From assembly GCA_021806135.1 (NCBI GenBank), contig JAJZYB010000001.1, positions 62,001 through 126,000 of the forward strand: DNA of 64,000 bases. Direction: 5' to 3'. Below, piece by piece: positions 12,326 through 27,847 of this stretch (position 1 is the stretch's first letter; each line of letters begins with the position of its first letter). Below the pieces are notes generated by a model. It was given only the letters and a program-made list of their open reading frames with translations. It was not told the DNA's origin and did not search any database. The translations under genes and the position numbers were made by a program. Origin of the DNA: Thermoplasmata archaeon (GTDB lineage Archaea; Thermoplasmatota; Thermoplasmata; Lutacidiplasmatales; UBA184).

Positions 12326-12334
12326 TAGATATAG
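12326..12334 (+). promoter_or_regulatory. TATA-like element of the aromatic/Trp supercluster
   Basis: tagatatag centred about 28 nt upstream of the ATG at 12358. Confidence 0.5.
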
Positions 12335-12357: not shown

Positions 12358-12423
12358 ATGATGAGCGCTCTCCGGCCCGCCGACCCTGGCCGCCGGGACG
12401 CTCCTCGAACTTGGGCCTGGTGA
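12358..12423 (+). CDS. Putative 21-aa leader peptide MMSALRPADPGRRDAPRTWAW
   Basis: ORF with tandem ATG start at the expected leaderless position and TGG GCC TGG TGA at its end, upstream of the Trp biosynthesis supercluster. Confidence 0.45.
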   Translation: MMSALRPADPGRRDAPRTWAW

Positions 12424-12500
12424 GGGGGAGGTGCCGGGACGGCGCCTTCCCCCGATCCTCTGACCGGGGCCGTCCAGGCCACCTCCCCCTCCCCTTCCCC
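12422..12500 (+). promoter_or_regulatory. Putative RNA switch region with mutually exclusive helices
   Basis: 12422-12433 is perfectly complementary to 12480-12491; 12424-12435 alternatively pairs with 12441-12453; 12437-12446 pairs with 12466-12475 (9/10). Confidence 0.4.
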
Positions 12501-12522
12501 AGATGTGGAAAGAGAGGAAAAC

Positions 12523-13284
12523 ATGAACGGAAAGGACCTGCGGCTCCGGCGGCTGCTCCCCCGAGACGATTCCCGGCTCTTCGCGGTCCCCCTGGACCAT
12601 AGCCTCTCCCTGGGGCCCATCCCCGGGCTCGAGGACCTGGCGCGCCAGGCCGTCGCCCTGCAGGAGGCCGGCGCAGAGTTGCTCATCGTCCACAAAGGAG
12701 CGAGCCGGCAGGTCCTCCCCACGCTTCGTCCCGGGACATTCCTGGGGATCCATCTCTCCGCCTCTACCTCCATGGCGGCGCCGGGGGAAAGGAAGCGGCT
12801 GACCGGTTCGGTCCGGGAGGCCGTCCGCCTGGGGGCCGACCTCGTGAGCGCCCAGGTGAACTTCGGTGAGCCGGGGGAAGGGACGATGCTCGAGGACCTC
12901 GCGCGCCTCACGGGCGAGGCGGAGGAGCTGGGCATCCCGCTGCTGTGCATGGCGTACGTGCGGGAGCGCGGACACGAGAACGACCCGGCCTACCTCGCCC
13001 ATGCCTGCCGGGCTGTCTCCGACCTGGGGGCGGACCTGGTGAAGACGAACTTTCCCGGTCCGGAGGGGTTCCGCCAGATGGTGCGGACCACACCGGTACC
13101 TCTCCTGGTGGGAGGGGGCCCCCGGGCGGACGACCCGGCCCAATTCCTCACCGTGGTCCGCCAGGCCCTCGACGCCGGTGCCCGGGGGATCTGCGTGGGT
13201 CGGAACCTCTTCCAGAGCGGCGACCTGGCCACCCTGGGAGGCGACCTCCGCCGCCTCCTTCGTTCCCCGGGGAGGGAACCCTGA
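12523..13284 (+). CDS. 2-amino-3,7-dideoxy-D-threo-hept-6-ulosonate (ADH) synthase
   Basis: FAVPLDHSLSLGPIPGLED, GADLVKTNFPG, VGGGPRADD, GARGICVGRNLFQ; adjacent to DHQ synthase II. Confidence 0.9.
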   Translation: MNGKDLRLRRLLPRDDSRLFAVPLDHSLSLGPIPGLEDLARQAVALQEAGAELLIVHKGASRQVLPTLRPGTFLGIHLSASTSMAAPGERKRLTGSVREAVRLGADLVSAQVNFGEPGEGTMLEDLARLTGEAEELGIPLLCMAYVRERGHENDPAYLAHACRAVSDLGADLVKTNFPGPEGFRQMVRTTPVPLLVGGGPRADDPAQFLTVVRQALDAGARGICVGRNLFQSGDLATLGGDLRRLLRSPGREP

Positions 13285-13290
13285 CGGACC

Positions 13291-14310
13291 ATGGGACCAG
13301 ATCGGATCATCCTTGAACTCCCTCCCGGCGAGCCGGGAAGGGCCTTGCGCTCCCACGCGCGGCAGCGGGGTTTCCAACGCTTCCTCCTTCCCGAGGAGGA
13401 CCGGTCGGCCGACCGGGGCGAGCCGGGCGTTCACTATCTGGCCGGTGAGCGCCTCCTGGACCCGCAGGGACGCCCGGTGGGCGAGGTCGTGCCCGTGGGC
13501 TCGCCGGAAGAGCTGGAACGCTTCCTGGTGCGGATGCCCCACGACCGCCTCGAGCTCGTCGAGTTCCAGGGGGAGAGGTTGATCCCCCTGGAGAACCTGC
13601 TGAGCCGGCGGAAGGGCACCGGCGAACTGTGGGTACGGGCCCCCACCCCCTCCTCCATCCCTGGGTTGCTCGGCGCCCTCGAGCGTGGCTCGGATGCCGT
13701 GGTCCTCGCCCTCTCGCGCACGGAGGAGCTCATGGACTTGGAGCATCTCCTCGAGCAGGCGGTGAGGGCCCTGATGTGGACCGAGGTGGTCGTCCGGGAG
13801 AGCCGACCCGCCGGGATGGGGGAACGGGTCCTGGTGGACACCACCTCCCGGCTCCGGCCCGACGAGGGACTCCTGGTGGGCAGTCAGGCGGGGCTCCTCC
13901 TGCTCGCCCTCAGCGAGTCGGAGGGGTCGCGGTACACGCGACCCCGGGCATTCCGGGTCAACGCCGGGGCCCTCCATTCGTACACCCTGCTGGCGGAGGG
14001 GGAGACCCGATACCTGGACGAGCTGGCGGCCGGGGACCGGGTGGTCATCTCGCGACCGGACGGGCCAGCCCGGACGGCCCGGGTCGGTCGCCTCAAGGTG
14101 GAGCGCCGCCCGCTTCGGCTGGTGGCGGTGGAGCACGAGCAGCGGACGTACACCCTCTTCGCTCAGGAGGCGGAGACGGTCCGGCTCCGGGGAACCGACG
14201 GCCCGGTCGCCGTCCCGGATCTGGTCGTGGGTCAACGGCTGTGGGCCGTCACCCTTCCGTCAGCCCGCCACTTCGGACATGTGGTGGACGAGTCCGTGGA
14301 GGAGCGTTGA
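13291..14310 (+). CDS. 3-dehydroquinate synthase II
   Basis: RVLVDTTSRLRPDEGLLVGSQAGLLLLALSESEGSRYTRPRAFRVNAGALHSYTL, the archaeal AroB' signature. Confidence 0.92.
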   Translation: MGPDRIILELPPGEPGRALRSHARQRGFQRFLLPEEDRSADRGEPGVHYLAGERLLDPQGRPVGEVVPVGSPEELERFLVRMPHDRLELVEFQGERLIPLENLLSRRKGTGELWVRAPTPSSIPGLLGALERGSDAVVLALSRTEELMDLEHLLEQAVRALMWTEVVVRESRPAGMGERVLVDTTSRLRPDEGLLVGSQAGLLLLALSESEGSRYTRPRAFRVNAGALHSYTLLAEGETRYLDELAAGDRVVISRPDGPARTARVGRLKVERRPLRLVAVEHEQRTYTLFAQEAETVRLRGTDGPVAVPDLVVGQRLWAVTLPSARHFGHVVDESVEER

Positions 14311-15857
14311 CCGAGTCCGTACCCCTGCCCCCTTTGCTGGTGGTCACCCTGCCGGGCCGGACGGCGGAGGAGCTCAGGGCCGACCTCGGGGAGGCCGCTC
14401 GGGCCGGGGCCGACCTGGTGGAGATCCGGCTCGACCGCCTGTCCCCCGGGGAGTTCACCCGGCTGGAGCGGGTCCACGACCTCCCGCTGCTTCACCCCTG
14501 GATCCCCGCCATCGGCACCCTTCGTTCCCGGGCGGAAGGGGGAGAGGGGCCCGATGACCCCGCCACGCGCGCCCGGATCCTCCAGCGTGCCCTGGAGCTC
14601 TTCCCCTTCAGCTTCCTCGACCTGGAGTTCTCCCGGGATGGGGAGCTTAAGGACAACTTCCGGCAGGATGGTGGCCGGCCGCTCTCCTTGATCGGATCGA
14701 CCCACTTCCCCGGGCCGGTACCCGTCGGGTCGGTGCTCTCCCGGCTCGAAGAGACGCTCGGGTCGTTCGATGTGGCGAAGGTGGTCCTACCGGCGGACGG
14801 ACGCTACCTGGTCGAGGAGCTGCTCCCCGCCCTCCAGCCGTTCAAGGACCGGCCGTACGTGGTCCACACGGTGGGAGGACTGGGGTCGGTCCTGCGCGTG
14901 CTGGCCCGGCGCCTGGGCATGGAATGGGTCTTCGGGACATTGCCGGAAGGTCCCCCGGGCCGGGCGACGCACCGAGCTGTGGAACCCGCTCAGATCCCGT
15001 CGGATCGCCTCCGGCGCTACCTGGATGCCCCCGGGGATTGCCCCTGGTACGGCGTGGTCGGCCGCCCGCTCGGGCACACCCTTTCGCCATACTACCAGAA
15101 CCTGTTCTTCGAGGCCACCGAGCTCTGCGGCCTCTACGTCCCCCTCGAACCCTCCGCCTCGGACGACCTGCCTGGACTGCTCCGGGCCCTTCGGCCCTAC
15201 GGGCTCGCGGGGGTCAACGTGACCCGTCCGTTCAAGACCCAGGCCGCCGCACTGGCCGAGAGCGCCGACGAGGACGTGGAGCTCTCCGGGGCGGCCAACA
15301 CGCTCCTGTTGCCCCCGACCGGGCCCATCGAAGGGCTCAACACCGACGTCCAGGCCCTCCGCCGGCGGCTGGAGGAGGGGGAGCAGGAGGGGCTCTGGGA
15401 CGGGGGCCGGATGCTGGTGGTCGGGACCGGAGGCGCCGCCCGGGCGGCCATCCTCGCCGGCCTGGGAGCCAGCGCCCGGGTGCTGGTCCTGAGCCGGAGC
15501 CCGGAGCGGGCCAGCGCCCTCGCGGCGGAGTTCCCGTCCGAAGCGGTCCGTCCGGCAGCTCCGGAGACCCTGACCCCCTTCCCCCTGGTGGTCCATGCCA
15601 CCCCTGCCGGCCAGACCGCCGAACCGGGCACCTTTCCCCCTCTCGCAGCCGCGTTGGGGAAGGGGAGCTGGCTGCTCGACCTCGTGTACCGACCGCTCCG
15701 TACCCAGCTGAAGGACTGGGCCAATGCCGTGGGGGCATGCTACGAGGACGGGACCCGGATCCTCCTCTACCAGGCCCGGGCGAGCTTTGAACGCTTCACC
15801 GGCAGGCCCCTCTCCGACGCGACCTTTGGGGCGCTCCTTCCGGAGGCCTCCCGATGA
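14307..15857 (+). CDS. aroDE: Bifunctional 3-dehydroquinate dehydratase (type I)/shikimate dehydrogenase
   Basis: N-terminal LVEIRLDRL, STHFPGP, VAKVVLP; C-terminal GVVGRPLGHTLSPYYQN, GVNVTRPFKTQ, GAANTLLL, GLNTD, VVGTGGAARAA; TTG start in a 4-bp overlap. Confidence 0.9.
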   Translation: MTESVPLPPLLVVTLPGRTAEELRADLGEAARAGADLVEIRLDRLSPGEFTRLERVHDLPLLHPWIPAIGTLRSRAEGGEGPDDPATRARILQRALELFPFSFLDLEFSRDGELKDNFRQDGGRPLSLIGSTHFPGPVPVGSVLSRLEETLGSFDVAKVVLPADGRYLVEELLPALQPFKDRPYVVHTVGGLGSVLRVLARRLGMEWVFGTLPEGPPGRATHRAVEPAQIPSDRLRRYLDAPGDCPWYGVVGRPLGHTLSPYYQNLFFEATELCGLYVPLEPSASDDLPGLLRALRPYGLAGVNVTRPFKTQAAALAESADEDVELSGAANTLLLPPTGPIEGLNTDVQALRRRLEEGEQEGLWDGGRMLVVGTGGAARAAILAGLGASARVLVLSRSPERASALAAEFPSEAVRPAAPETLTPFPLVVHATPAGQTAEPGTFPPLAAALGKGSWLLDLVYRPLRTQLKDWANAVGACYEDGTRILLYQARASFERFTGRPLSDATFGALLPEASR

Positions 15858-16705
15858 CCCGGGCGGGGCGGGGAACCGCCTGGGGAGGGATCTCCTTCCT
15901 CAACGGCATCCCCACGGGAGTCGGGTCCACGGCCGCCGTCCGGCTACCGGTAGAGGTGACCGTGGAGCCGGGGGTCTCGGAGGAGGCGTTGCCGGAGGGT
16001 CTGGACGGGGTGCTCCGGGAGAGCCTACGAGCCCTGGGCGATGGGCCGGACGGCGAGCGGGACCGCCCCCTGCGGGTGCGGGTGCGATCCGCCGTTCCCC
16101 CGGGTCAAGGTTTGAAAAGCTCCTCCGCGGTCTCGATCGCCCTCCTCCGCGCGCTCCGGGACCGGTGGGGCAGCCCTCCCCTTCCTCCCGAGGACCTGGC
16201 CCGGCTCAGCGCCCGGGTCTGTAGGGCGGCCGGTCTCAGCATCACGGGAGCCTACGACGACGCGCTCGCCTCGGCCGGCGGCGGGATCGTGCTGGGGGAT
16301 GTCCGGGGGGAACAGACCCTCCGCAAGGACGACCCGCCCCCGGGAGTCGCGGTACTCCTGTGGCTGCCGGGAGGCACCCATCCGGAGGTTGCCCTCCTCC
16401 GCCAGCACTGGAACCGGGTGCACTCGCCCGAGGCGAAGGCCGCCGAGGCCGAGGCCCGGGCCGGCCGGTACTTCGAGGCCATGGAGCTGAACACCCTGCT
16501 GGTGGAACGGGTCCTGGGATACCCCTGGGGAGAGCTCCGCCGTCGACTGAAGGCGGCGGGGGCGCTTGCCTCGGGGGTCTCCGGAAACGGTCCGGCCCTG
16601 GCCGTGGTGATCCCCAGCGGAACCGAGCGGCGCTTCGATGGCATCTTCCTCACCGGAGAGCTCCTCCAGACCACGCTAGTCCCGGCCGGCGAGGCGCCCC
16701 CATGA
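15854..16705 (+). CDS. Archaeal (GHMP-type) shikimate kinase
   Basis: PPGQGLKSSSAVSIALLRAL, SITGAYDDALASAGGGIVL, ASGVSGNGPALAVV. Confidence 0.88.
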   Translation: MTRAGRGTAWGGISFLNGIPTGVGSTAAVRLPVEVTVEPGVSEEALPEGLDGVLRESLRALGDGPDGERDRPLRVRVRSAVPPGQGLKSSSAVSIALLRALRDRWGSPPLPPEDLARLSARVCRAAGLSITGAYDDALASAGGGIVLGDVRGEQTLRKDDPPPGVAVLLWLPGGTHPEVALLRQHWNRVHSPEAKAAEAEARAGRYFEAMELNTLLVERVLGYPWGELRRRLKAAGALASGVSGNGPALAVVIPSGTERRFDGIFLTGELLQTTLVPAGEAPP

Positions 16706-18060
16706 CCCCCCCGAGGGCTCTCGCCCCCGGGAGCGAGGCGGGGGAGGTCTGGCGGATCGTGCCGGGGCCCCTTTCCGGCAGGCTCGTCGGGTCGGGGTCC
16801 AAGAGCTACACCCACCGCGCCCTCCTGGCGGGGCTGCTCGGCCGGGGACGGATGACCATCCATCACCCCCTGGTCTCCGACGACACCGCGGCGAGCCTGG
16901 GGGTCTCCAGGGCGCTAGGTGCGACGGTGCACGAGCGCACGGACGGCCCCGGGCTTTCCTGGGACCTGGATGCGAGCGAGGCCCTCCACCCGACCCGCCA
17001 GACCCGGCGGCTCTGGGCCGGGGAGTCCGGGACCACCCTACGCCTCTTCACCCCGGCGAGCACCCTTCCCGGGACACCGGTCCGGTGGGACGGGGAAGCC
17101 TCCCTCGCCCGTCGGCCCATGGATCCGCTCCTTCGAGCCCTATCGGAGCTGGGGGCACGGGTCCGTCCCGCGGCCCCGGGCCGGAGCCTCCCGTTCCGGA
17201 TCGAGGGGCCTCTTTCCGCGGGGACCGTGACGCTCCCGGGCTCCGTGAGCAGCCAGTTCCTGTCCGGACTGCTCTTCGCGCTCGCGGGGCTGCCTTCGCC
17301 CAGCCGGGTCCGGGTTCAGGGCCCCCAGGTCTCCCAGCCGTACGTGGAGGCGAGCCTGCGGGTGCTCGGTGCCTTCGGGGTGCGGATCCAGCGGGGTCGA
17401 GGCTGGTACGGGGTCCCCGGGAACGGCCCGTTCCGGCCCGTCCCGCTGGAGATCCCCGCGGACGCGAGCTCAGCCGCCTACCTCTTCGCCGGAGCAGCGC
17501 TGTCGGGCGGGACGGTCCGTGTCGGGCCCTTTCCGGTCGGATGGCCGCAAGCCGACCTCGCCGTGCTGCCGGTCCTGCGGGCCGTGGGCGCCCGCGTCGT
17601 CCGGCGAGGGACCGACTGGGAGGTCTCCGGCGGCCCGCTCCCTCTCCGTCCGTTCCGGGCGGACCTCGATGCGTCTCCGGACCTCGCCCCCCTGCTCGCG
17701 GTCCTCGCCAGCTTCGGACGGGGGGTGAGCCGACTGACCGGGGGCGCCCAGTTGGTGCACAAGGAGAGCGACCGTCGTCGCGGGACCGAAGCGCTCGTGC
17801 GGTCCTTGGGGGCGAGGCTCCGACGTTCCAGGGAGGAGTGGGCGATCCAGGGACCCCCGTCGGTCCGCAGGCTGAGACGGCTTACGCTCTCGGACCATCG
17901 GCTCCTCTTCTCGGCGGCGGTGGCCGCCCTCGCCTTGCCCGAGCCGTCGACGCTCGGACCGGGGTCCGCCGCCGCCAAGTCCTATCCCCGGTTCTTCCAG
18001 GACCTGGCCGGCCTCGGGGTCGCCGTCCGTCCCACCGGGCGGAAGGGGGTGGGCGGATGA
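16702..18060 (+). CDS. aroA: 3-phosphoshikimate 1-carboxyvinyltransferase
   Basis: GSGSKSYTHRALLAGLLGRG, AGESGTTLRLF, SVSSQFLSGLL, DASSAAYLFAGAAL. Confidence 0.93.
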   Translation: MTPPRALAPGSEAGEVWRIVPGPLSGRLVGSGSKSYTHRALLAGLLGRGRMTIHHPLVSDDTAASLGVSRALGATVHERTDGPGLSWDLDASEALHPTRQTRRLWAGESGTTLRLFTPASTLPGTPVRWDGEASLARRPMDPLLRALSELGARVRPAAPGRSLPFRIEGPLSAGTVTLPGSVSSQFLSGLLFALAGLPSPSRVRVQGPQVSQPYVEASLRVLGAFGVRIQRGRGWYGVPGNGPFRPVPLEIPADASSAAYLFAGAALSGGTVRVGPFPVGWPQADLAVLPVLRAVGARVVRRGTDWEVSGGPLPLRPFRADLDASPDLAPLLAVLASFGRGVSRLTGGAQLVHKESDRRRGTEALVRSLGARLRRSREEWAIQGPPSVRRLRRLTLSDHRLLFSAAVAALALPEPSTLGPGSAAAKSYPRFFQDLAGLGVAVRPTGRKGVGG

Positions 18061-19145
18061 GGATGCGCTTCGGCGAGGCGCTCCAGGTCACGGTCTTTGG
18101 ATCGAGCCATGGGCCGGATGTCGGTTCGGTGGTGGAGGGCCTTCCCGCCGGGCTCCCGGTCGACCTGACGGGGATCCAGGCGGAGCTCGACCGACGTAGC
18201 CCCGTCGGGAGGAAGCTCGCCACCCGCCGGGCGGAGCGGGACCAGCTCATCCTCACCCATGGGGTCTCCGGGGGGAGGACCACGGGGGGACCGGTGGTCG
18301 GGTACGTGAGGAACGAGGACGTTCGCCGGGGACCGTACCGCCCCCTGGAGGACGTTCCCCGCCCGGGACACGCCGATTACCCGGCGCGCGAGCGCTACGG
18401 CGGGTCTTTGGACCTCTCTGGAGGAGGGATCTTCTCCGGCAGAATGACGGTGGGTCTGGTGTTGGCCGGCGCCCTCGTCCGCCCCTTCCTCACGGCCCAA
18501 GGGGTCTCTGTCGTCGCCTTCACACGGTCGATCCACGGGATCTCCGTCCCCGAGACGGCCCTGTCCCTTCCGCTCACGGGACTGGAGGCGGCCTCCCGGG
18601 AGAACGAGCTGGGCGCGCCGGACCCGGACGCCGCCGAGGCCATGACCCGGTCCATCGAGGAGGCCCGCCGCTCCGGCGACAGCGTCGGGGGGATCATCGA
18701 GGCCCGGGCCGAAGGGCTACCTGTGGGCCTCGGAGAACCCTTCTTCGATTCGCTAGAGGGCTCCCTCGCCCACGCGCTCTTCGCGATCCCCGCCGTCAAG
18801 GGCGTGGAGTTCGGCTCCGGCTTTGCCTCGGCCGATCGGCTCGGGAGCGAGAACAACGACCCGTACGAAATGGTCCAGGGAACCGTCCGGACCCGGACCA
18901 ACCACGCCGGCGGGATCCTGGGAGGGCTCTCGACCGGCATGCCTCTCCTCCTCAGGGTGGTGGTGAAGCCCACGAGCTCCATCGCCCGGGAGCAGGAGTC
19001 CATCTCCCTCTCCCGGAGGACCGCGCAACGGTTGGTGGTCACCGGAAGGCACGACCCGTGCATCGTTCCCCGTGCGGTCCCAGTGGTGGAGCACGTCACC
19101 GCCTTCGTCCTCGCCGACTTCCTGCTCCGCCGGGGGCGTTCATGA
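18057..19145 (+). CDS. aroC: Chorismate synthase
   Basis: GSSHGPDVGSVVEGLPAGLPVD, PGHADYPARERYG, SARETA-like GGRMTVGLV, GGSSGGI-like HAGGILGGLSTGMP, TGRHDPCIVPRAVPVVE. Confidence 0.94.
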   Translation: MRMRFGEALQVTVFGSSHGPDVGSVVEGLPAGLPVDLTGIQAELDRRSPVGRKLATRRAERDQLILTHGVSGGRTTGGPVVGYVRNEDVRRGPYRPLEDVPRPGHADYPARERYGGSLDLSGGGIFSGRMTVGLVLAGALVRPFLTAQGVSVVAFTRSIHGISVPETALSLPLTGLEAASRENELGAPDPDAAEAMTRSIEEARRSGDSVGGIIEARAEGLPVGLGEPFFDSLEGSLAHALFAIPAVKGVEFGSGFASADRLGSENNDPYEMVQGTVRTRTNHAGGILGGLSTGMPLLLRVVVKPTSSIAREQESISLSRRTAQRLVVTGRHDPCIVPRAVPVVEHVTAFVLADFLLRRGRS

Positions 19146-20200
19146 GCCGGATCCCCTGCGCCATCCTGGGGGCCGGCGGCTGGATCGGACAACACTTCGC
19201 CCGTCTCCTGAACGACCACCCGGAGTTCCAGGTGGAGGCGCTCACCGGGGGGAAGAGCGCAGGACGGACGCTGGGGGAGCTCTGGCAGCTCGCGGACGTC
19301 CCCGTCCCCAGCGAGCTCGGCCCCCGGCGCCTGGTCCAGCTCGCTCCGCGGGAGCTGGCGGCCCGGGGGGTCCGGGTCGTCTTCTCCGCCCTCCCCGGGT
19401 CGGAGGCCGGGCCTCTCGAGACCGAGCTTGCCCGCCGGGGGATCGCCGTCTTCTCGAACGCCTCCTCGCACCGGATGGACCCCGGGGTCCCGCTCCTGGT
19501 CCCCGAGGTCAATGGTCCTGCCCTTACGTCCCGTCGCTCGGGCCCACTCCTGGTCACCAACCCGAACTGTTCCACGGCCGGGCTGGTCCTTCCCCTGGCC
19601 CCGCTCTGGGACCGGCTCCGGCCGACGGAGGTCTTCGTGGCCACCTACCAGGCGCTCTCAGGAGCAGGTTATCCAGGGGTCCCGGCCCTTTCGGTGGTGG
19701 ACAACGTCCTGCCGTTCATCCCGGAGGAGGAGGAGAAGATGGCGGCGGAAGCGTCCAAGATCCTCGGCTTCCGTCCCGGCAACGGACCGGGACAGAGCCG
19801 GGTCCTCGCCCACTGCGTGCGCGTTCCCTCCCGGGAGGGACACCTCGAGGCGGTGACCTTGAAGGTCCGCCGCCCTCTCCCCGCCCGGGAGATCGTTCAG
19901 GCGTGGGAATCCTTCCACCCCCTCGAGGACGGACGCGCCTCCGGTGGCCTACCCACCGCCCCGGAACAGCCGGTGCTCTACCTTCCTGAAGAGGACCGGC
20001 CGCAGCCGCTCCGGGACCGGTGGGCGGGAGACCCGACGAGGGCCCGCGGGATGACGGTCTGCGTCGGTCGCCTCCGGATCGATGGGCCGTACGTCCGCTT
20101 CATCCTTCTCGCGCACAACGCCGTCCGCGGCGGAGCCGGAGGGTCTGTGCTCAACGCCGAATACGCCCGATACAGGGGGGCCCTTGGACCCGGACGCTGA
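19142..20200 (+). CDS. asd: Aspartate-semialdehyde dehydrogenase
   Basis: ILGAGGWIGQHFARLL, VTNPNCSTAGLVLPLAPL, TYQALSGAGYPGVP. Confidence 0.92.
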   Translation: MSRIPCAILGAGGWIGQHFARLLNDHPEFQVEALTGGKSAGRTLGELWQLADVPVPSELGPRRLVQLAPRELAARGVRVVFSALPGSEAGPLETELARRGIAVFSNASSHRMDPGVPLLVPEVNGPALTSRRSGPLLVTNPNCSTAGLVLPLAPLWDRLRPTEVFVATYQALSGAGYPGVPALSVVDNVLPFIPEEEEKMAAEASKILGFRPGNGPGQSRVLAHCVRVPSREGHLEAVTLKVRRPLPAREIVQAWESFHPLEDGRASGGLPTAPEQPVLYLPEEDRPQPLRDRWAGDPTRARGMTVCVGRLRIDGPYVRFILLAHNAVRGGAGGSVLNAEYARYRGALGPGR

Positions 20201-21515
20201 GCCCCTCCCTACGGTGGTGAAGTACGGCGGGGCCGCCCTTAGCCCCGCGATGGCCCAGCGGGCCGCCGAGGATCTGCTCGGCCGGACGGGGCCGATCGTG
20301 GTGGTGGTCTCCGCCCGGGCCGGGGTGACCGACCAGTTGCTCTCCTGCCTGGAGCCCCCCTTCCGCACCGTGCGGCACGTGGAGACGGTGCAACAGATGC
20401 GGTTAGAGCACCCGGGGCTTACCCCCGCCGGGGAGACCCAGTTCCAGGCCCTGGAGCGGGACCTCAAGCGTCTGCGGTCCGAGGGCCGAGCGACCCCGGA
20501 GCTCTCCGACCGGATCCTGACCTACGGAGAACGGCTGGCCGCCTCCTGGTTCGCCGGTGAGATCCAGCGACGGGGCCGGCCGGCCCAGGCGGTTGAGGCG
20601 GACCGGCTCGGGCTCAAGACCGATGGCTCCCCCGGCGATGCCCGGGTCCTGCTCGCCGCGTCCGCCGCCCGGGTACGTCGTGGGCTGACCGGGCTCCTCG
20701 GGCGGGGGGTCCTTCCCGTGGTCACAGGCTTCCTCGGCGTCTCGAGCGGGGGCCGAGTGACCACCCTTGGCCGGGGGGGCTCCGACTATTCCGCCACCGC
20801 GCTCGCGTACTGCCTCGGCTGGTCCCGGGTCGAACTGGTCAAGCAGAGCGTGAGCCTGCGCTCTGCCGATCCCCGGCTGGTCCCGGGGACCCGGCCGGTC
20901 GAACGCTTGTCCTTCGACGAGGCAGAGGAGCTCGCCCAGTTCGGGGCGAAGGTGCTCCACCCCCGGACCATGGAGCCGGCCCGGGCCCGGGGGATGGAGG
21001 TGACCATCCGCTCCCTGGAGGACCCAACGCAGAGGACGCTGGTGGGCCCGCGTCCCGGCCCGGAGCCCCTACGCGCCATCACCCTGCTGGGCCCGGTGAG
21101 CCTCCTGCTGCTCCGGGTCCCGGGAGGGCGCCAGCGGCGAGGGGTCCTCGCCGAGGTGAGCCTCGCCCTCTCCACCGGGGGGGTCACGGTGGCCACCCTG
21201 TACACCTCCTCTGCCCTCCTGTGCATCGTGGTGGAGTCGGCCCAGGCCTCCCGGGCCCAGAAGCTTCTGAAGCGGTTCTCCCGGGTGGAGGGCGCAACGC
21301 TGGAGGGTCCCCTGCCCGCGGCGCTGGTCACCGCCATCGGGGAGGGGTTGCTCTCCGACCTGGGTCGGTTGCCCGGAGGGCTTCCTCCCCTCGTGCTCGG
21401 CGCCAGCGCCACCAATCGGACCCTTTCCCTGGCCGTCCCGGCGGACCGGGGGTTGGAGGTCCTTCGCGCGCTGCACCGGAACCTGGTGGAACGTCGGGAG
21501 GCGCCGGGCGGATGA
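20184..21515 (+). CDS. lysC: Aspartate kinase
   Basis: VVKYGGAAL, LTYGERLAASWFAG, TTLGRGGSDYSATALAYCLGW, FGAKVLHPRTMEPAR, C-terminal ACT-like region; TTG start at 20184 (alternative GTG at 20213). Confidence 0.9.
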   Translation: MDPDAEPLPTVVKYGGAALSPAMAQRAAEDLLGRTGPIVVVVSARAGVTDQLLSCLEPPFRTVRHVETVQQMRLEHPGLTPAGETQFQALERDLKRLRSEGRATPELSDRILTYGERLAASWFAGEIQRRGRPAQAVEADRLGLKTDGSPGDARVLLAASAARVRRGLTGLLGRGVLPVVTGFLGVSSGGRVTTLGRGGSDYSATALAYCLGWSRVELVKQSVSLRSADPRLVPGTRPVERLSFDEAEELAQFGAKVLHPRTMEPARARGMEVTIRSLEDPTQRTLVGPRPGPEPLRAITLLGPVSLLLLRVPGGRQRRGVLAEVSLALSTGGVTVATLYTSSALLCIVVESAQASRAQKLLKRFSRVEGATLEGPLPAALVTAIGEGLLSDLGRLPGGLPPLVLGASATNRTLSLAVPADRGLEVLRALHRNLVERREAPGG

Positions 21516-22786
21516 GGACGGCAGGGGCGGAGGTACGGGGCGACCCTCTCGAAGGCTTCCTTTCGGAGGCCCGGGAGGTCTCCGGACCGGCCTTCTACTT
21601 CGAACGCGGCCCCTCTCTGGCGGGGGACCGACGCTGGGCGATCTACGGCAGCGCGGGCGAGGAACCCTGCACCCTGCGGTCCCCCCGGGACGTCGGGACT
21701 CTCGCCGAGAAGCTGGGGGGACTCCGGACGAGCGCGGAGAGTCGCTGGTTCGGGTACCTCGGCTTCGATGCCTGCGGGCTTTTCGAACCCCTCCTCCGGG
21801 CGTCGGTCCCCTCCGGCTCCCCGTTCCCCCTTGGCCAGTTCTACCGCTTCTCCCGGATACGCTCCGGCCGACCCCGGCTTCCGGGCGCGGGCGGGCGGAG
21901 GGATCCTGGGGCCTTGACCGTGGGGCCCGTCCGGGACCAGACCAGCGCTGCCCGCTTCGAGGAGTCGGTCCGGAAGCTCCAGAGGTCGATCCTGGACGGG
22001 GAGGCCTTCCAGGTGGTCCTGGCCCACCGGCGCGAACGCTACCGTTCCGGGTCGCTGCTCCGGCTCCTCTGCCGGCTCCGGGACCGGGAACGCTACGCGT
22101 ACCTGTTCTACCTGCGCTTCGGCCCGGGGGACCGGGGCGAGGTCGTGGGGGCGTCCCCGGAGAGCGTGCTCGAGGTCCGGGACGGGCGGGCGACCATCGA
22201 TCCGATCGCCGGCACGCTGCCTCACCCGGGGCCACGACGGGGCCGGAGGGCCCGACTCCCCCTGCGCTCGGACCCCAAGGAGCTCGCCGAGCACCGGATG
22301 CTCGTGGACCTGGCCCGGAACGACCTCGGGAAGGTCTGCCAGCCAGGCTCCGTGAGGGTGCTCCGCCAGGAAGTACGGGTCCGGTATGCGCATCTGGAGC
22401 ACCTGGTGAGCCGGGTGGGGGGGGACCTCCGGCCCGAAGAGACCGCGGTCTCCGCCCTCGCGTCGGCCTTCCCGGCCGGGACCGTCAGCGGGGCGCCGAA
22501 GATCCGGGCCATCCAACTGCTTCGGCGCGAGGAGCAGACCTGGAGAGGCCCCTACGCCGGGGCCGTGGGGCTCTTCGGCCCGGGCCGGCAGGCGGATTTC
22601 GCCCTGGCGATCCGCACCGCCTTTGCGTTCGGTCCCCGGCTCTTCACCGCGGCCGGCGCGGGGATCGTCCAGGCCTCCCGCCCGAAGCAGGAATGGGAGG
22701 AGACCCACCACAAGCTCTCCACGCTGGAGGCGATCCTCGCCGAGAGCTCCCACGGCGGCGCCGACGCCGGGGAGGGGCGGTCATGA
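21512..22786 (+). CDS. trpE: Anthranilate synthase component I
   Basis: GASPESVLEV, IDPIAGTLP, DPKELAEHRMLVDLARNDLGKV, FPAGTVSGAPKIRA. Confidence 0.93.
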   Translation: MRTAGAEVRGDPLEGFLSEAREVSGPAFYFERGPSLAGDRRWAIYGSAGEEPCTLRSPRDVGTLAEKLGGLRTSAESRWFGYLGFDACGLFEPLLRASVPSGSPFPLGQFYRFSRIRSGRPRLPGAGGRRDPGALTVGPVRDQTSAARFEESVRKLQRSILDGEAFQVVLAHRRERYRSGSLLRLLCRLRDRERYAYLFYLRFGPGDRGEVVGASPESVLEVRDGRATIDPIAGTLPHPGPRRGRRARLPLRSDPKELAEHRMLVDLARNDLGKVCQPGSVRVLRQEVRVRYAHLEHLVSRVGGDLRPEETAVSALASAFPAGTVSGAPKIRAIQLLRREEQTWRGPYAGAVGLFGPGRQADFALAIRTAFAFGPRLFTAAGAGIVQASRPKQEWEETHHKLSTLEAILAESSHGGADAGEGRS

Positions 22787-23373
22787 AGGTCCTCCTGGTG
22801 GACCATCAGGACTCCTTCGTCCACAACCTCGCCCAGGCCCTGGCCACCCTCGGGGCGGAGGTCTACACCCGGCGGTCCTCCTTCCCGTTCTCCCAGGTGA
22901 AGCGGCTGGACCCGGACGCCGTGGTCCTCTCCCCCGGCCCCGGGCACCCCTCCGACCGCGCCACGCTGGGGGTCACCTTCCGTATCCTCGAGGAGCTCTC
23001 ACCCGCCCTCCCCACGTTGGGGGTCTGCCTCGGGCATCAGGCCATCGGCTACCACTTCGGGGCGCGGGTGATCCGGGCCCCTCGTCCCTGCCACGGCGAG
23101 ACCTCGCGGGTCGAGCACGACCGGGACCCGATCTACGAAGGGCTCCCGGACCCGTTGGTGGCGGCGCGTTATCATTCGCTCGTCGTCTCGCCCCGCGGCC
23201 TTCCCGCGGACCTTAGGGTGAACGCCTGGGAACGGGAAGGGAAGACCCGGGTGATCATGGGCCTACGTCACCGTCACTTTCCCGTGGTCTCCGTGCAATT
23301 CCACCCGGAGTCCTACCTGACCCCCCAAGGACCCCGTATCCTCAAGAACTTCCTCGGGGAGGCCCGGCGGTGA
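22783..23373 (+). CDS. trpG: Anthranilate synthase component II (glutamine amidotransferase)
   Basis: LLVDHQDSFVHNLAQ, VLSPGPGHPS, LGVCLGHQAIGYHFGA, SVQFHPESYLTPQG. Confidence 0.94.
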   Translation: MKVLLVDHQDSFVHNLAQALATLGAEVYTRRSSFPFSQVKRLDPDAVVLSPGPGHPSDRATLGVTFRILEELSPALPTLGVCLGHQAIGYHFGARVIRAPRPCHGETSRVEHDRDPIYEGLPDPLVAARYHSLVVSPRGLPADLRVNAWEREGKTRVIMGLRHRHFPVVSVQFHPESYLTPQGPRILKNFLGEARR

Positions 23374-24419
23374 CCGCGAAGGATCCGGTGCGGGAGGGCC
23401 GGGAATGGCTCCTTAGCCTGCAGCACCACGAGGACCTTTCCCGATCGGAGGCCTACCGCCTGGCGGAGCGGCTCGCCTCCGGCACGTTTCCCGAGGCGTT
23501 GGCGGGAGCTCTCCTGGTGGCATTGGCCGCGAAGGGGGAGAGCCCGGAGGAGATCTTCGCCTTCGCCACCTTCCTGCGTCGCCACGCCCGTGCTTTCCTC
23601 CCGGGAGAGGTCGACGGCGCGGTGGACCTCTGCGGAACCGGGGGAGCCGCTCACCCCACCTTCAACGTCTCCACGGTGAGCGCCTTCGTGGTCGCGGCCG
23701 GGGGACTGCCGGTCGTGAAGCACGGGAACTCCTCCGCCCGAGGACCCTGTGGGTCGAGCGATCTCCTGGAGGCTCTGGGCCTCCCCGTGAAGGTCTCCCC
23801 GGGCTACGCCGAGGCCTCCTTCCGGCGCGAACGGCTCGCCTTCCTCCACGCCCCCCTCTACCACCCGGCCACCGCCTCCATCGCCGGGATCCGTCGAGCC
23901 CTCGGGACGAGGACCGTCTTCAACCTGCTCGGCCCGCTGAGCAACCCCGCTCCGGTGCGGATCCAGCTCCTCGGCTGCTTCGACCGGGCCTACGCCAGGA
24001 CCGCGAGCGGACTGCTCCCGCGTCTAGGGGTCCCCCGGAGCCTCACCTTCACCGGGGAAGAGGGGACGGACGAGTTCGTCCCCGGGGGGAGGACTTTCGG
24101 CTTCGTCCGGCAGGGGGAGCGCAGCGCGAGATGCCGGTTCGAGGGACGGCGGTATCTGACTCCCCGGGAACGGAGAGGGTCCATCGGTCCCCTTCCCCCG
24201 ACCGGGGCGGCCAGGGAAGCGGAACGGCTGCTCGCCGGGGGATCGGGAGCGCGACGGGGCTCGGTCCTCCTGACTGCGGGGGCCGCGTTCTGGGTCTCCG
24301 GCCAGGACCGGACGATGAACGAGGGGATCGAGCGGGCTCGCCGGCTCCTGGACGAGGGCAAGGCACTCGAGAAGCTGCGGGCTCTCCAGGAGTTGGCGGA
24401 GGGACGGACGTGGTCGTGA
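23370..24419 (+). CDS. trpD: Anthranilate phosphoribosyltransferase
   Basis: DLCGTGGAAHPTFNVSTVSAFVVAAGG, VKHGNSSARGPCGSSDLLEALG, RTVFNLLGPLSNP. Confidence 0.93.
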   Translation: MTAKDPVREGREWLLSLQHHEDLSRSEAYRLAERLASGTFPEALAGALLVALAAKGESPEEIFAFATFLRRHARAFLPGEVDGAVDLCGTGGAAHPTFNVSTVSAFVVAAGGLPVVKHGNSSARGPCGSSDLLEALGLPVKVSPGYAEASFRRERLAFLHAPLYHPATASIAGIRRALGTRTVFNLLGPLSNPAPVRIQLLGCFDRAYARTASGLLPRLGVPRSLTFTGEEGTDEFVPGGRTFGFVRQGERSARCRFEGRRYLTPRERRGSIGPLPPTGAAREAERLLAGGSGARRGSVLLTAGAAFWVSGQDRTMNEGIERARRLLDEGKALEKLRALQELAEGRTWS

Positions 24420-25225
24420 ACCCCGTCGAGCCCGGGTTCCTGCGGCGGATGGTCCAGGAGGTCCGTCGCCAGCTGGAGGAAGGCGTCTACGACCAGGTCG
24501 GCGAGCCGGGGGAGCCACCGCCCGCCTCGGAGCGCTTCTCCTCGGCGATCGCCTCTGGCCAACGCCCGGGCCTCATCGCGGAGCTCAAGCACGCCTCCCC
24601 CGGATACCAGGAGGGGGAACTCCGGGCGCCTGGCCCCGAACGGTTCCTCCAGTGGGCCCGGGCCGGGGGGGCCCAGGCCATCTCGGTGGTTCCCCAGGCC
24701 TTCCGCTTCGGTGGCTCGCTGGAGGAGTTCGGGAGGGTCGCCGGGAAGAGCTCCCTCCCCGTCCTCTTCAAGGACTTCGTCCTCGACCCCCGTCAGATCC
24801 GGGCCGCTCGCCGTTGCGGGGCCCGTGCGGTGCTCCTGCTCGCGCGCCTGGAGTACGAGGGAGGGCTTTCCGGCCCGCTCGCGAGCCTGGTGGAAGAGGC
24901 GCACCGGGCCGGCCTGGAGGCGGTGGTGGAGGTCCACCGGGAAGAGGACCTCCCCAGGGCCCTGGCCTCCCGGCCGGATCTCCTCGGGGTGAACGCCCGG
25001 GACCTGGAGACCCTTGAACTGGACCGGGCCCGGGCCCTTCGCACGCTCGCCAGCGCCCGGGGACACGGGATCCCGTTGGTGGGAATGAGCGGCATCGCCG
25101 GTCCGGAAGAGGTCCGAGCCTACCAGAGGGCCGGCGCCGACGCGGTCCTGGTGGGAACCCGATTCATCGAGGCGGAGGACCCCGGGGCCTTCCTCCGTTC
25201 CTTGCGACCCGGGGAACACCGGTGA
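24416..25225 (+). CDS. trpC: Indole-3-glycerol-phosphate synthase
   Basis: LIAELKHASPGYQEGE, VLFKDFVLDPRQI, LLGVNARDLETLELD, GMSGIAGPEEV; GTG start. Confidence 0.92.
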   Translation: MNPVEPGFLRRMVQEVRRQLEEGVYDQVGEPGEPPPASERFSSAIASGQRPGLIAELKHASPGYQEGELRAPGPERFLQWARAGGAQAISVVPQAFRFGGSLEEFGRVAGKSSLPVLFKDFVLDPRQIRAARRCGARAVLLLARLEYEGGLSGPLASLVEEAHRAGLEAVVEVHREEDLPRALASRPDLLGVNARDLETLELDRARALRTLASARGHGIPLVGMSGIAGPEEVRAYQRAGADAVLVGTRFIEAEDPGAFLRSLRPGEHR

Positions 25226-25238
25226 GGCGGAAGGGACC

Positions 25239-25880
25239 TTGAAGGTGAAGATCTGCGGGCTGACCCGCCGGGAGGACCTCGAAGCCTGCCAAGGCGCGGA
25301 CCTCGTGGGGGTGGTGGTGGGAGTTCCCCGTTCCCCCCGCAACCTCACCTGGACGGAGGCCGAGGGCCTCCTGGCCGCGGCCCGGGGCCGGTTCCTTCGG
25401 GTGGTGGTCCTGGCCTCCCCGGCCCCCTCGGAGGTGGCCCGGGCATTCCGGGCCGGGGCGGACCGGGTCCAGCTCCACGGCCCGGTCCCCTCCGGGCTAC
25501 CCTTCGGGAGCGAAACCACGCTCATCCCTTCGCTGGCCCTGCCCAAGAGCCCCGGCGAACAGCTTCCGCCCTCCCTGGAGCGGATCTGGCACGGCCCCTA
25601 TCCGTTGGTCCACCTGGATACGGGGGGGGAGGACCGGCCGGGGGGAACCGGCAGGGCCTGGGACTGGGCCGGCTGGTCGGGGCTGATCCGTCGTGACCGC
25701 CGGCCTTTCCTCCTGGCAGGGGGGCTGACCTCGGAAAACGTCACCCGGGCCATGACGGAGCTCACCCCGTGGGGGGTGGACGTGTCCAGCGGGGTGGAGT
25801 CCCGTCCCGGACAGAAGGACCCCGTCCGCATCCAAGAGTTCATTCGGACGATCCGTGCTTGGGAGGACGCCCATGCCTGA
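25239..25880 (+). CDS. trpF: Phosphoribosylanthranilate isomerase
   Basis: [55 protein letters not shown] start. Confidence 0.93.
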
Positions 25881-27042
25881 GTGGTACGGCCCCTACGGAG
25901 GTTCCTACGTCCCCGAGACCTTGGTCCCGGCGTTGAAGGAGCTCGAACTGGTCTGGAAGAGTGCCCGCAGGGACCCGGAATTCCGCTCCCGGTTCCAGGA
26001 TCTGGCTCGGGACTGGGGAGGGAGGCCCACTCCCCTCTACTTCGCCGAACGGCTCACCCGGGAGGTGGGCGGGGCCGAGATCTACCTCAAGCGGGAGGAC
26101 CTGGTGCACGGGGGCGCCCACAAGCTGAACAATGCGCTCGGGCAGGGACTGTTGGCCCTGCGGCTCGGGAAGCGTCGGCTCATCGCCGAGACCGGGGCCG
26201 GACAGCACGGCGTGGCCACCGCGATGATCGGGGCGAAGCTCGGGCTGTCCACCGAGGTGTACATGGGAGCGGCGGACATGGAACGCCAGAAGCCCAACGT
26301 GCTGCGGATGCGGCTTCTCGGCGCCACCGTCCGGCCCGTGACCCAGGGGCAGCAGACCCTGAAGGAGGCGATCAACGAGGCGCTCCGGGACTGGATCGCC
26401 AACGTACAGGACACCCACTACCTCCTGGGCAGCGCCGTGGGGCCCCACCCCTTCCCTTCTCTGGTGGCGGACTTCCAATCGGTGATCGGACGGGAACTAC
26501 GAAGGCAGAGCCGGGCCCGGTGGGGACGGGACCCGGACCTGGTCCTCGCCTGCGTGGGTGGGGGATCGAACGCCATCGGGACGTTCCACCCTCTTCTCCG
26601 GGGGCCGGCCCGGCTGGTCGGGGTGGAGGCCCGGGGCTCGGGAGAGCCCTCGGGCTGGGGGGCCGCCTCCCTGGTCCGCGGTTCGGTAGGGGTACTGCAC
26701 GGGATGCGCACGTATCTCCTGCAGGACGAGGAAGGGCAGATCCTTCCCACCCAATCCGTCTCAGCGGGCCTGGACTACGCGGGGGTGGGACCGGAGCACG
26801 CCTGGTTGAAGGACTCCGGGAGGGTGGAGTACACCTCGGCCACCGACCGGGAGGCCCTCGAGGCCTTCCACCGGTTGGCGCGGACGGAGGGGATCCTGCC
26901 GGCGCTGGAGCCCTCGCACGCGCTGGCCGTGGCCCTTCAACGGGCGACGACGTTGCCCCGGGACCAGCACGTGGTGGTGACCCTATCCGGACGGGGGGAC
27001 AAGGACCTCGCGGAGGTGGAGCGGTTTGGGCCGCCTCGGTGA
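25873..27042 (+). CDS. trpB: Tryptophan synthase beta chain
   Basis: [57 protein letters not shown]. Confidence 0.94.
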
Positions 27043-27847
27043 GGTCCTCCGCCAGCGCCGCGAGCGCGGAGAGGGAAGCCTTCTCACCTACCTGATGGCC
27101 GGTTCGGTCCCCCCCGAGAAGTTCCTGTCGTGTGTCCGGGCCTTCCGCGCCGCCGGGGTGACCGGGCTGGAGGTGGGCTTTCCCTTCAGTGACCCCATGG
27201 CCGAGGGCCCGGTGATCCAGCGCGCGGCGACCCTGGCCCTGGCCCGGGGCACCCGGTGGTCGGACCTCCTGGAGTTGTTGCCCCAGGTGGCCGAGGAGCT
27301 TCCCGTGGCGGTGATGACCTACCTCAACGTCATTCTGCGTCACGGCGGGGGAAAGGCGCTCGAGGAGCTCCGGTCCCACGGGGCCGACGCGGTGATCTTG
27401 CCGGACCTTCCCCTGGAGGGCCTCCGGGACCTGGGAGCTCACCGGGCCGTGAAGGGCCTGGACATCGTGCTGCTCGCTTCCCCGGCGACCGGCGCCGAGC
27501 GGCTCCGTCGGCTCGCCCGCCACACCGAGGGCTTCCTCTATCTGGTCTCCCGCTACGGAACGACCGGGCTGGGGGGAGGCACGACGCCTTCCACCAAGAC
27601 CCACGCACTGGACCTGACCGAGGAGATCCGGCAGGTCCATGCCGAACGGCCGAAGTTGCCCATCCTGGCCGGCTTCGGAGTGCGTCACGCGCAGGACATC
27701 CGTTCCTTCCTTCAACAAGGGGCGGACGGGGCCATCGTGGGCAGCCTGCTGCAGGATCGGCTCAACGAGGAAGCGCAAGTCTCTGAACTGGACGCACTGG
27801 TCCGGGCGCTCGTTCAGGGTCTGGCGAAAACGAGCACCGGGCCTTGA
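27026..27847 (+). CDS. trpA: Tryptophan synthase alpha chain
   Basis: [56 protein letters not shown] start. Confidence 0.92.

Follow-up and report, generated by a model that had tools for sequence, protein, structure and literature searches.

A tryptophan leader ORF and a predicted Shine-Dalgarno switch form a probable translational attenuator before an archaeal aspartate-to-tryptophan operon

In an uncultivated acid-soil Thermoplasmata archaeon of the Lutacidiplasmatales, a short open reading frame (ORF) ending in two tryptophan codons precedes a large biosynthetic operon, and the RNA between the two is predicted to hide or release the Shine-Dalgarno (SD) sequence of the first operon gene. 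We consider it probable that this leader is a ribosome-mediated translational attenuator, sensing charged tRNA-Trp and controlling the whole aspartate-to-tryptophan operon. The window analysed here, a stretch of 64,000 nucleotides to which all positions refer, has a GC content of 71% and derives from a genome of 1.85 Mb. The family of this genome has been placed in the Lutacidiplasmatales (PMC9287336), and the first operon gene has its named relatives in Thermoplasmata MAGs.

The operon lies directly downstream of the leader and comprises 15 genes, all on the + strand (12523-27847). The first encodes 2-amino-3,7-dideoxy-D-threo-hept-6-ulosonate (ADH) synthase, the archaeal AroA' (12523-13284; NCBIfam NF005556, E 1.8e-67), and is followed by 3-dehydroquinate (DHQ) synthase II (13291-14310; NF002627, E 9.8e-64), by an AroD-AroE fusion, archaeal shikimate kinase (15854-16705), EPSP synthase and chorismate synthase (together 14310-19145), by aspartate-semialdehyde dehydrogenase and aspartate kinase (19139-21515), and by TrpE, TrpG, TrpD, TrpC, TrpF, TrpB and TrpA (21500-27847), the boundaries in the last three groups being approximate. 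We take this set to cover all steps by which tryptophan is made from aspartate and sugar phosphates and, judging from strand and spacing, a single transcript would carry all 15 genes. In 30 genomes of the family, aroA' and the IGPS gene (trpC) are likewise 11-13 kb apart on one contig. The AroA' gene of one relative (G083:C166:6495-7238, L240) contains one in-frame TAG, and the genome concerned is flagged as 8% contaminated; recoding, gene decay or a sequencing error could account for it. HisG and prephenate dehydratase (PDT) were undetected in the window's genome (G000) and in most members of its family, f1; with both absent, Trp may be the chief aromatic amino acid drawn from the pathway, and several amino acids may be imported.

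A TATA-like element, GATATA (12328-12333, +), the putative promoter of a leaderless mRNA, has its centre 27.5 nt ahead of the leader's start codon. Of 59 relatives, 55 have such an element with its centre 25.5-28.5 nt ahead of the ATG and four have no clear match, and a TATA-ATG spacing of this size is typical of leaderless archaeal mRNA. The leader mRNA is probably leaderless, because its ORF starts about 27 nt past the TATA-like element. This ORF (12358-12423, +; MMSALRPADPGRRDAPRTWAW) extends from an ATG at 12358 to a UGA at 12421-12423, and its last sense codons are UGG GCC UGG (12412-12420, +), referred to here as W1, x and W2, with the UGG codons at 12412 and 12418. An earlier note on this DNA had assumed a Trp leader peptide, and the assumption was borne out by the ATG, the two UGG codons, the UGA, the TATA-like element and the homologues, since 53 of 80 named relatives have, at the corresponding place, an ORF of 22-24 aa ending in W-x-W-UGA. 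The arrangement is that expected of an attenuator: a short ORF, upstream of a biosynthetic operon, with codons for the amino acid that the operon makes. Leader length is exactly 23 aa in 49 of 59 leaders; within these 49, W2 is kept in all and W1 in 47, and the codon between them varies (Leu, Ser, Trp, Pro or Ala). The near-constant length of 23 codons is found although the sequence between the start and W-x-W is free, and ribosome loading on leaderless mRNA, tunnel length or the timing of RNA polymerase may be the reason.

Downstream of the control codons, five RNA segments on the + strand could form several folds. Segment A (12422-12435), whose part A1 (12424-12429) would act as the anti-sequestor strand, can pair with either D or B. 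Segment B (12437-12453) pairs through 12437-12446 with segment C (12466-12475) inside the A:D hairpin, or through 12441-12453 with A. Segment D (12480-12491) is a perfect 12-bp complement of A, as had been noted before: the sequence of 12422-12433 (GAGGGGGAGGTG), read as its reverse complement, is identical to that of 12480-12491. The 3′ end of D (12488-12491) also belongs to the sequestor helix, in which the anti-SD strand D2 (12488-12498) is predicted to pair with segment E (12507-12517) once A is covered, both in folds of the RNA free from 12430 or 12433 and in homologues. Segment E includes the SD-like GAGAGG (12512-12517) of the first operon gene, as identified from the sequence and the predicted folds. 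The other helices described earlier were also reproduced. The inner B:C helix starts at 12437/12475 and forms, together with A:D, the minimum-free-energy fold, and for the alternative hairpin A:B, in which 12424-12435 pairs with 12441-12453, local folding gives -26.5 kcal/mol. The comparison with shuffled sequence that the same note had proposed came out in favour of an exceptional structure, with 12421-12495 folding at -50.8 kcal/mol (z -4.8) and none of 200 dinucleotide shuffles as good; the longer stretch 12360-12520 folds at -87.7 kcal/mol (z -3.8). The perfect 12-bp inverted repeat is the sole one in the window within that distance, but first-order Markov sequences yield 0-5 such repeats, so the repeat alone is not significant, and the significance lies in the energies and the homologues. 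Searches with Rfam covariance models, those of bacterial trp leaders and the T-box included, returned no match over threshold and only three sub-threshold miRNA-type matches.

The helices were counted in a sequence-only alignment of 56 leaders. The A:D helix was paired in 86.4% of cells, compared with 55-67% for slid versions, and showed 24 two-sided changes against 10.1 in shuffles, whereas the A:B helix was paired in 89.1% of cells, compared with 43-52% when slid. Pair variation is mostly C/U in D opposite a fixed G in A, and two-sided covariation is concentrated in a few columns (18-88, 19-87, 22-84, 28-78 and 29-77). The covariation that the earlier note had asked for in homologous leaders is hence present above the shuffled expectation, if in few columns, and from the alignment we would call it good, not overwhelming. 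Swapping the partner strands between species weakened the pairing of A:D (z -7.8), A:B (z -4.2) and D:E (z -3.0) but not that of the control A:E (z -0.9), all these z values including the relatedness of the sequences. When RNAalifold was run on the whole alignment, it preferred A:B with a small stem, owing to the poor alignment of the long A:D helix and of the variable C region, and A:D was consequently counted as a named structure. Mutually exclusive folds that adjoin the control codons are thus conserved in the homologues. The very stable A:B hairpin (12424-12453), conserved with some two-sided changes, has no clear part in the predicted switch and might serve as a pausing signal or arise as a kinetic intermediate.

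Two complementary partners are available to the 3′ end of D, namely A1, just past the stop codon, and the SD region of the first gene. Since 12488-12498 would be paired to A in one fold and to the SD in the other, control is most likely exerted on translation, with A:D most likely the ON fold and D:SD the OFF fold. The cover of a ribosome was mimicked by trimming the RNA from its 5′ side, and the energy needed to open the SD was then computed for 59 homologues. With the RNA free from just after the UGA, as when the first UGG occupies the A site, opening the SD costs 2.63 kcal/mol; with the next 9 nt covered, as when the UGA occupies the A site, it costs 6.60 kcal/mol. The difference of 3.97 kcal/mol compares with -0.02 +/- 0.16 in dinucleotide-shuffled sets, and the transition falls 3-6 nt past the stop codon, where A1:D2 yields to D2:SD. 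A shift of more than 1 kcal is predicted in 78% of the 59 sequences and none in about a fifth of the homologues; for the window's own RNA the prediction is a modest 0.3 to 2.9 kcal/mol, below the family mean. There, the ON fold has A1 (12424-12429) paired with D, and the OFF fold consists of 12488-12491:12514-12517, 12493:12512 and 12495-12498:12507-12510. In the absence of any ribosome, the SD is predicted to be half accessible. By thermodynamic prediction, then, the fold that would control the operon depends on ribosome position, and in the predicted structures the SD of the first gene lies in a helix that excludes the alternative fold, as in translational attenuators.

A ribosome with the usual footprint has its 3′ edge about 15 nt beyond the first base of the P site. 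It had been proposed that a ribosome paused on the Trp codons would cover A; with this footprint, a ribosome at the first Trp codon reaches only the UGA and leaves A free, and it is the ribosome at the stop codon that would cover A. The two-state switch suggested at the same time finds support in the homologues as far as its tie to a ribosome on the Trp codons is concerned, but the folds then seen as competing, A:D and A:B, do not carry the predicted switch. We therefore propose the following sequence of events, which takes for granted that the ORF is translated and that archaeal ribosomes have the usual footprint. The probably leaderless mRNA would open with the leader ORF of about 23 codons, whose last sense codons are UGG-x-UGG. 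When Trp is sufficient, ribosomes would reach the UGA, where their 3′ edge covers A1; A1 could then no longer hold D2, which would pair with the SD of the first gene and keep its translation low (OFF). When Trp is scarce, a ribosome would stall at the first Trp codon with its edge at the UGA, following ribosomes would be blocked, and A1 would be free to pair with D2 atop the long A:D/B:C hairpin, releasing the SD (ON). Starvation would accordingly be the inducing condition, acting at a translational rather than a transcriptional step and presumably extending to the distal genes. Besides the modest shift in the window, the homologues lacking a shift, the half-accessible SD of ribosome-free RNA and an A:B hairpin that the scheme does not use, one further point sits badly with it: a ribosome stalled at W2 would, with the full 15-nt footprint, also cover A1, so that the conservation of W2 calls for a shorter effective footprint or another reason.

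A Trp-induced arrest at the stop codon, similar to that of TnaC, would have the same sign, with free Trp rather than charged tRNA as the sensed molecule: the nascent W-x-W peptide and abundant Trp would stall the ribosome at the UGA, A1 would be covered and the SD hidden. The strict placement of the W codons at -1 and -3 before the stop, the UGA found in every leader even when the stop type was not prescribed in the search, and the need for a ribosome resting on the UGA in the OFF state all fit such an arrest. However, the footprint geometry alone explains the position of the codons, and known arrest peptides rely on several residues, whereas the rest of this peptide is unconserved. Conserved residues beyond the Trp codons, as expected of the TnaC type, were not found in the freely variable leader body, whose codons show no purifying selection (entropy at positions 1/2/3 of 1.55/1.52/1.34) and, 3-6 residues before W2, no more than a weak bias towards small residues (A, T, V). 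With a varied body and fixed W codons, what matters would be the control codons, start, stop and length and not the peptide, and we regard a TnaC-like arrest as unlikely.

A transcriptional attenuator is a somewhat more doubtful explanation. The position of the ribosome would here select the fold that lets RNA polymerase continue or exposes the RNA to archaeal termination, either by FttA/aCPSF1-type polarity or at a U-poor terminator, and the exclusive helices A:B versus A:D/B:C do resemble the 1:2, 2:3 and 3:4 helices of bacterial trp attenuators. It is made less likely by the absence of a terminator: an intrinsic one (GC hairpin plus U-run) before the first gene is absent in the window, where the lack of a U-tract had already been remarked on, and none is conserved in the leader alignment. 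Moreover, the conserved, switchable partner of D is the SD, for which a terminator would have no need. The translational attenuator remains the preferred reading.

The distribution of the leader follows that of the tryptophan genes. A strict DNA pattern of the leader was found in 57 of 103 family genomes and the reversed pattern in none, and a covariance model located the leader in family f1 and nowhere else convincingly among 390 genomes of the phylum. Outside the family, matches to the model in 2 of the 390 genomes (E 0.06) were weak and taken as chance, as was a weak second match in G003 inside a coding-looking stretch. A crude scan upstream of aroA' or trpE in other Thermoplasmata families recovered no comparable W-x-W leader. 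Among family genomes at least 85% complete, 33 have both trpC and the leader, five trpC only, none the leader only and 18 neither (Fisher p 1.6e-10, a value not corrected for relatedness). On the gene tree, trpC changes state 10 times and the leader 8 times, and independent pairs of changes never go in opposite directions; the association is clade-structured, with too few well-supported independent changes for significance. G063 lacks both the trp genes and the leader, and its sister G062 has both. In G010, a leader (MAAGPCHVSYDARPAMSSCAWGW) with the RNA switch precedes trpE (L114 / L223, G010:C4), and aroA' is on another contig with no leader before it; the element thus either travelled with the trp genes or remained beside them. 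The trp operons of G005, G015 and G020 have trp genes and no leader. It is very improbable that all this reflects a constitutively structured 5′ region, with hairpins that serve only for mRNA stability or as insulation of the SD and a W-rich ORF present by coincidence: at a GC content of about 70%, strong folding would be no surprise, and the predicted switch is missing in some homologues, but the UGG codons are fixed around a variable codon, ORF length and promoter spacing are near constant, and the leader is absent where trp genes are absent.

Regulation of archaeal trp genes has been described for TrpY in Methanothermobacter and Tar/TK0271 in Thermococcus, which respond to Trp or aromatic amino acids (PMC6737238). 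Just two regulated archaeal trp operons were listed in 2007 (PMC1854888), and by 2019 little beyond TrpY was known in Archaea (PMC6737238). Upstream ORFs in long archaeal 5′ UTRs were catalogued in Haloferax with no mechanism (PMC4983044). Both TrpY and Tar are DNA-binding transcription regulators without a leader peptide, unlike the archaeal leader described here. Leader-peptide attenuation is a textbook bacterial mechanism, and to our knowledge the sensing of Trp shortage by a stalled ribosome has so far been known only from bacteria. No case of archaeal attenuation or of an archaeal leader peptide was found in the open-access papers searched, a set that misses most subscription papers and does not prove priority; ribosome-mediated translational attenuation that is ON in Trp starvation has apparently not been described before in Archaea. 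It seems rather likely that the Lutacidiplasmatales evolved leader-peptide attenuation independently, with a stop-codon ribosome repressing a 15-gene operon through SD sequestration, and that this is the first archaeal ribosome-mediated amino-acid attenuator. In that case, Archaea too would have evolved ribosome sensing of aminoacyl-tRNA, in a form suited to leaderless translation, and the leader would lend itself readily to measurements of ribosome footprints and of stalling in starvation on leaderless archaeal mRNA. A lineage-specific Trp leader with a predicted SD-switching RNA is in any event conserved in dozens of archaeal species. Other archaeal biosynthetic operons may merit a search for leaderless leader ORFs, which annotation pipelines drop for their size.

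Among known systems, the leader resembles Escherichia coli trpL in that a biosynthetic operon is preceded by a short leader ORF whose UGG codons are close together, and in exclusive helices that would be set by ribosome position, with derepression in Trp starvation. It differs in its archaeal host, its probably leaderless leader mRNA, its UGG codons directly before the stop, its lack of a terminator, its predicted target, the SD of the first gene, and an operon whose content extends to shikimate and aspartate genes. Neither in sequence nor in structure was homology to E. coli trpL found, and there was no credible Rfam match. In logic, with a terminating ribosome as the repressor, it is closest to rtpLP of Bacillus subtilis, the leader of anti-TRAP (rtpA), which has three Trp codons near its stop and in which the terminating ribosome blocks initiation at the downstream gene until stalling on the Trp codons relieves the block. 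In rtpLP, however, the ribosome blocks the SD directly by overlap, whereas in the archaeal leader the SD lies at a distance of about 90 nt and an RNA helix would mask it. In its SD-sequestering RNA it is closest to the ermC/ermB leaders, whose SD is held in a hairpin and freed by strand exchange according to the position of the leader ribosome. There the signal is an antibiotic and the stalled ribosome opens the sequestor directly, whereas in the archaeal leader it is the ribosome beyond the stall site that is predicted to close the sequestor.
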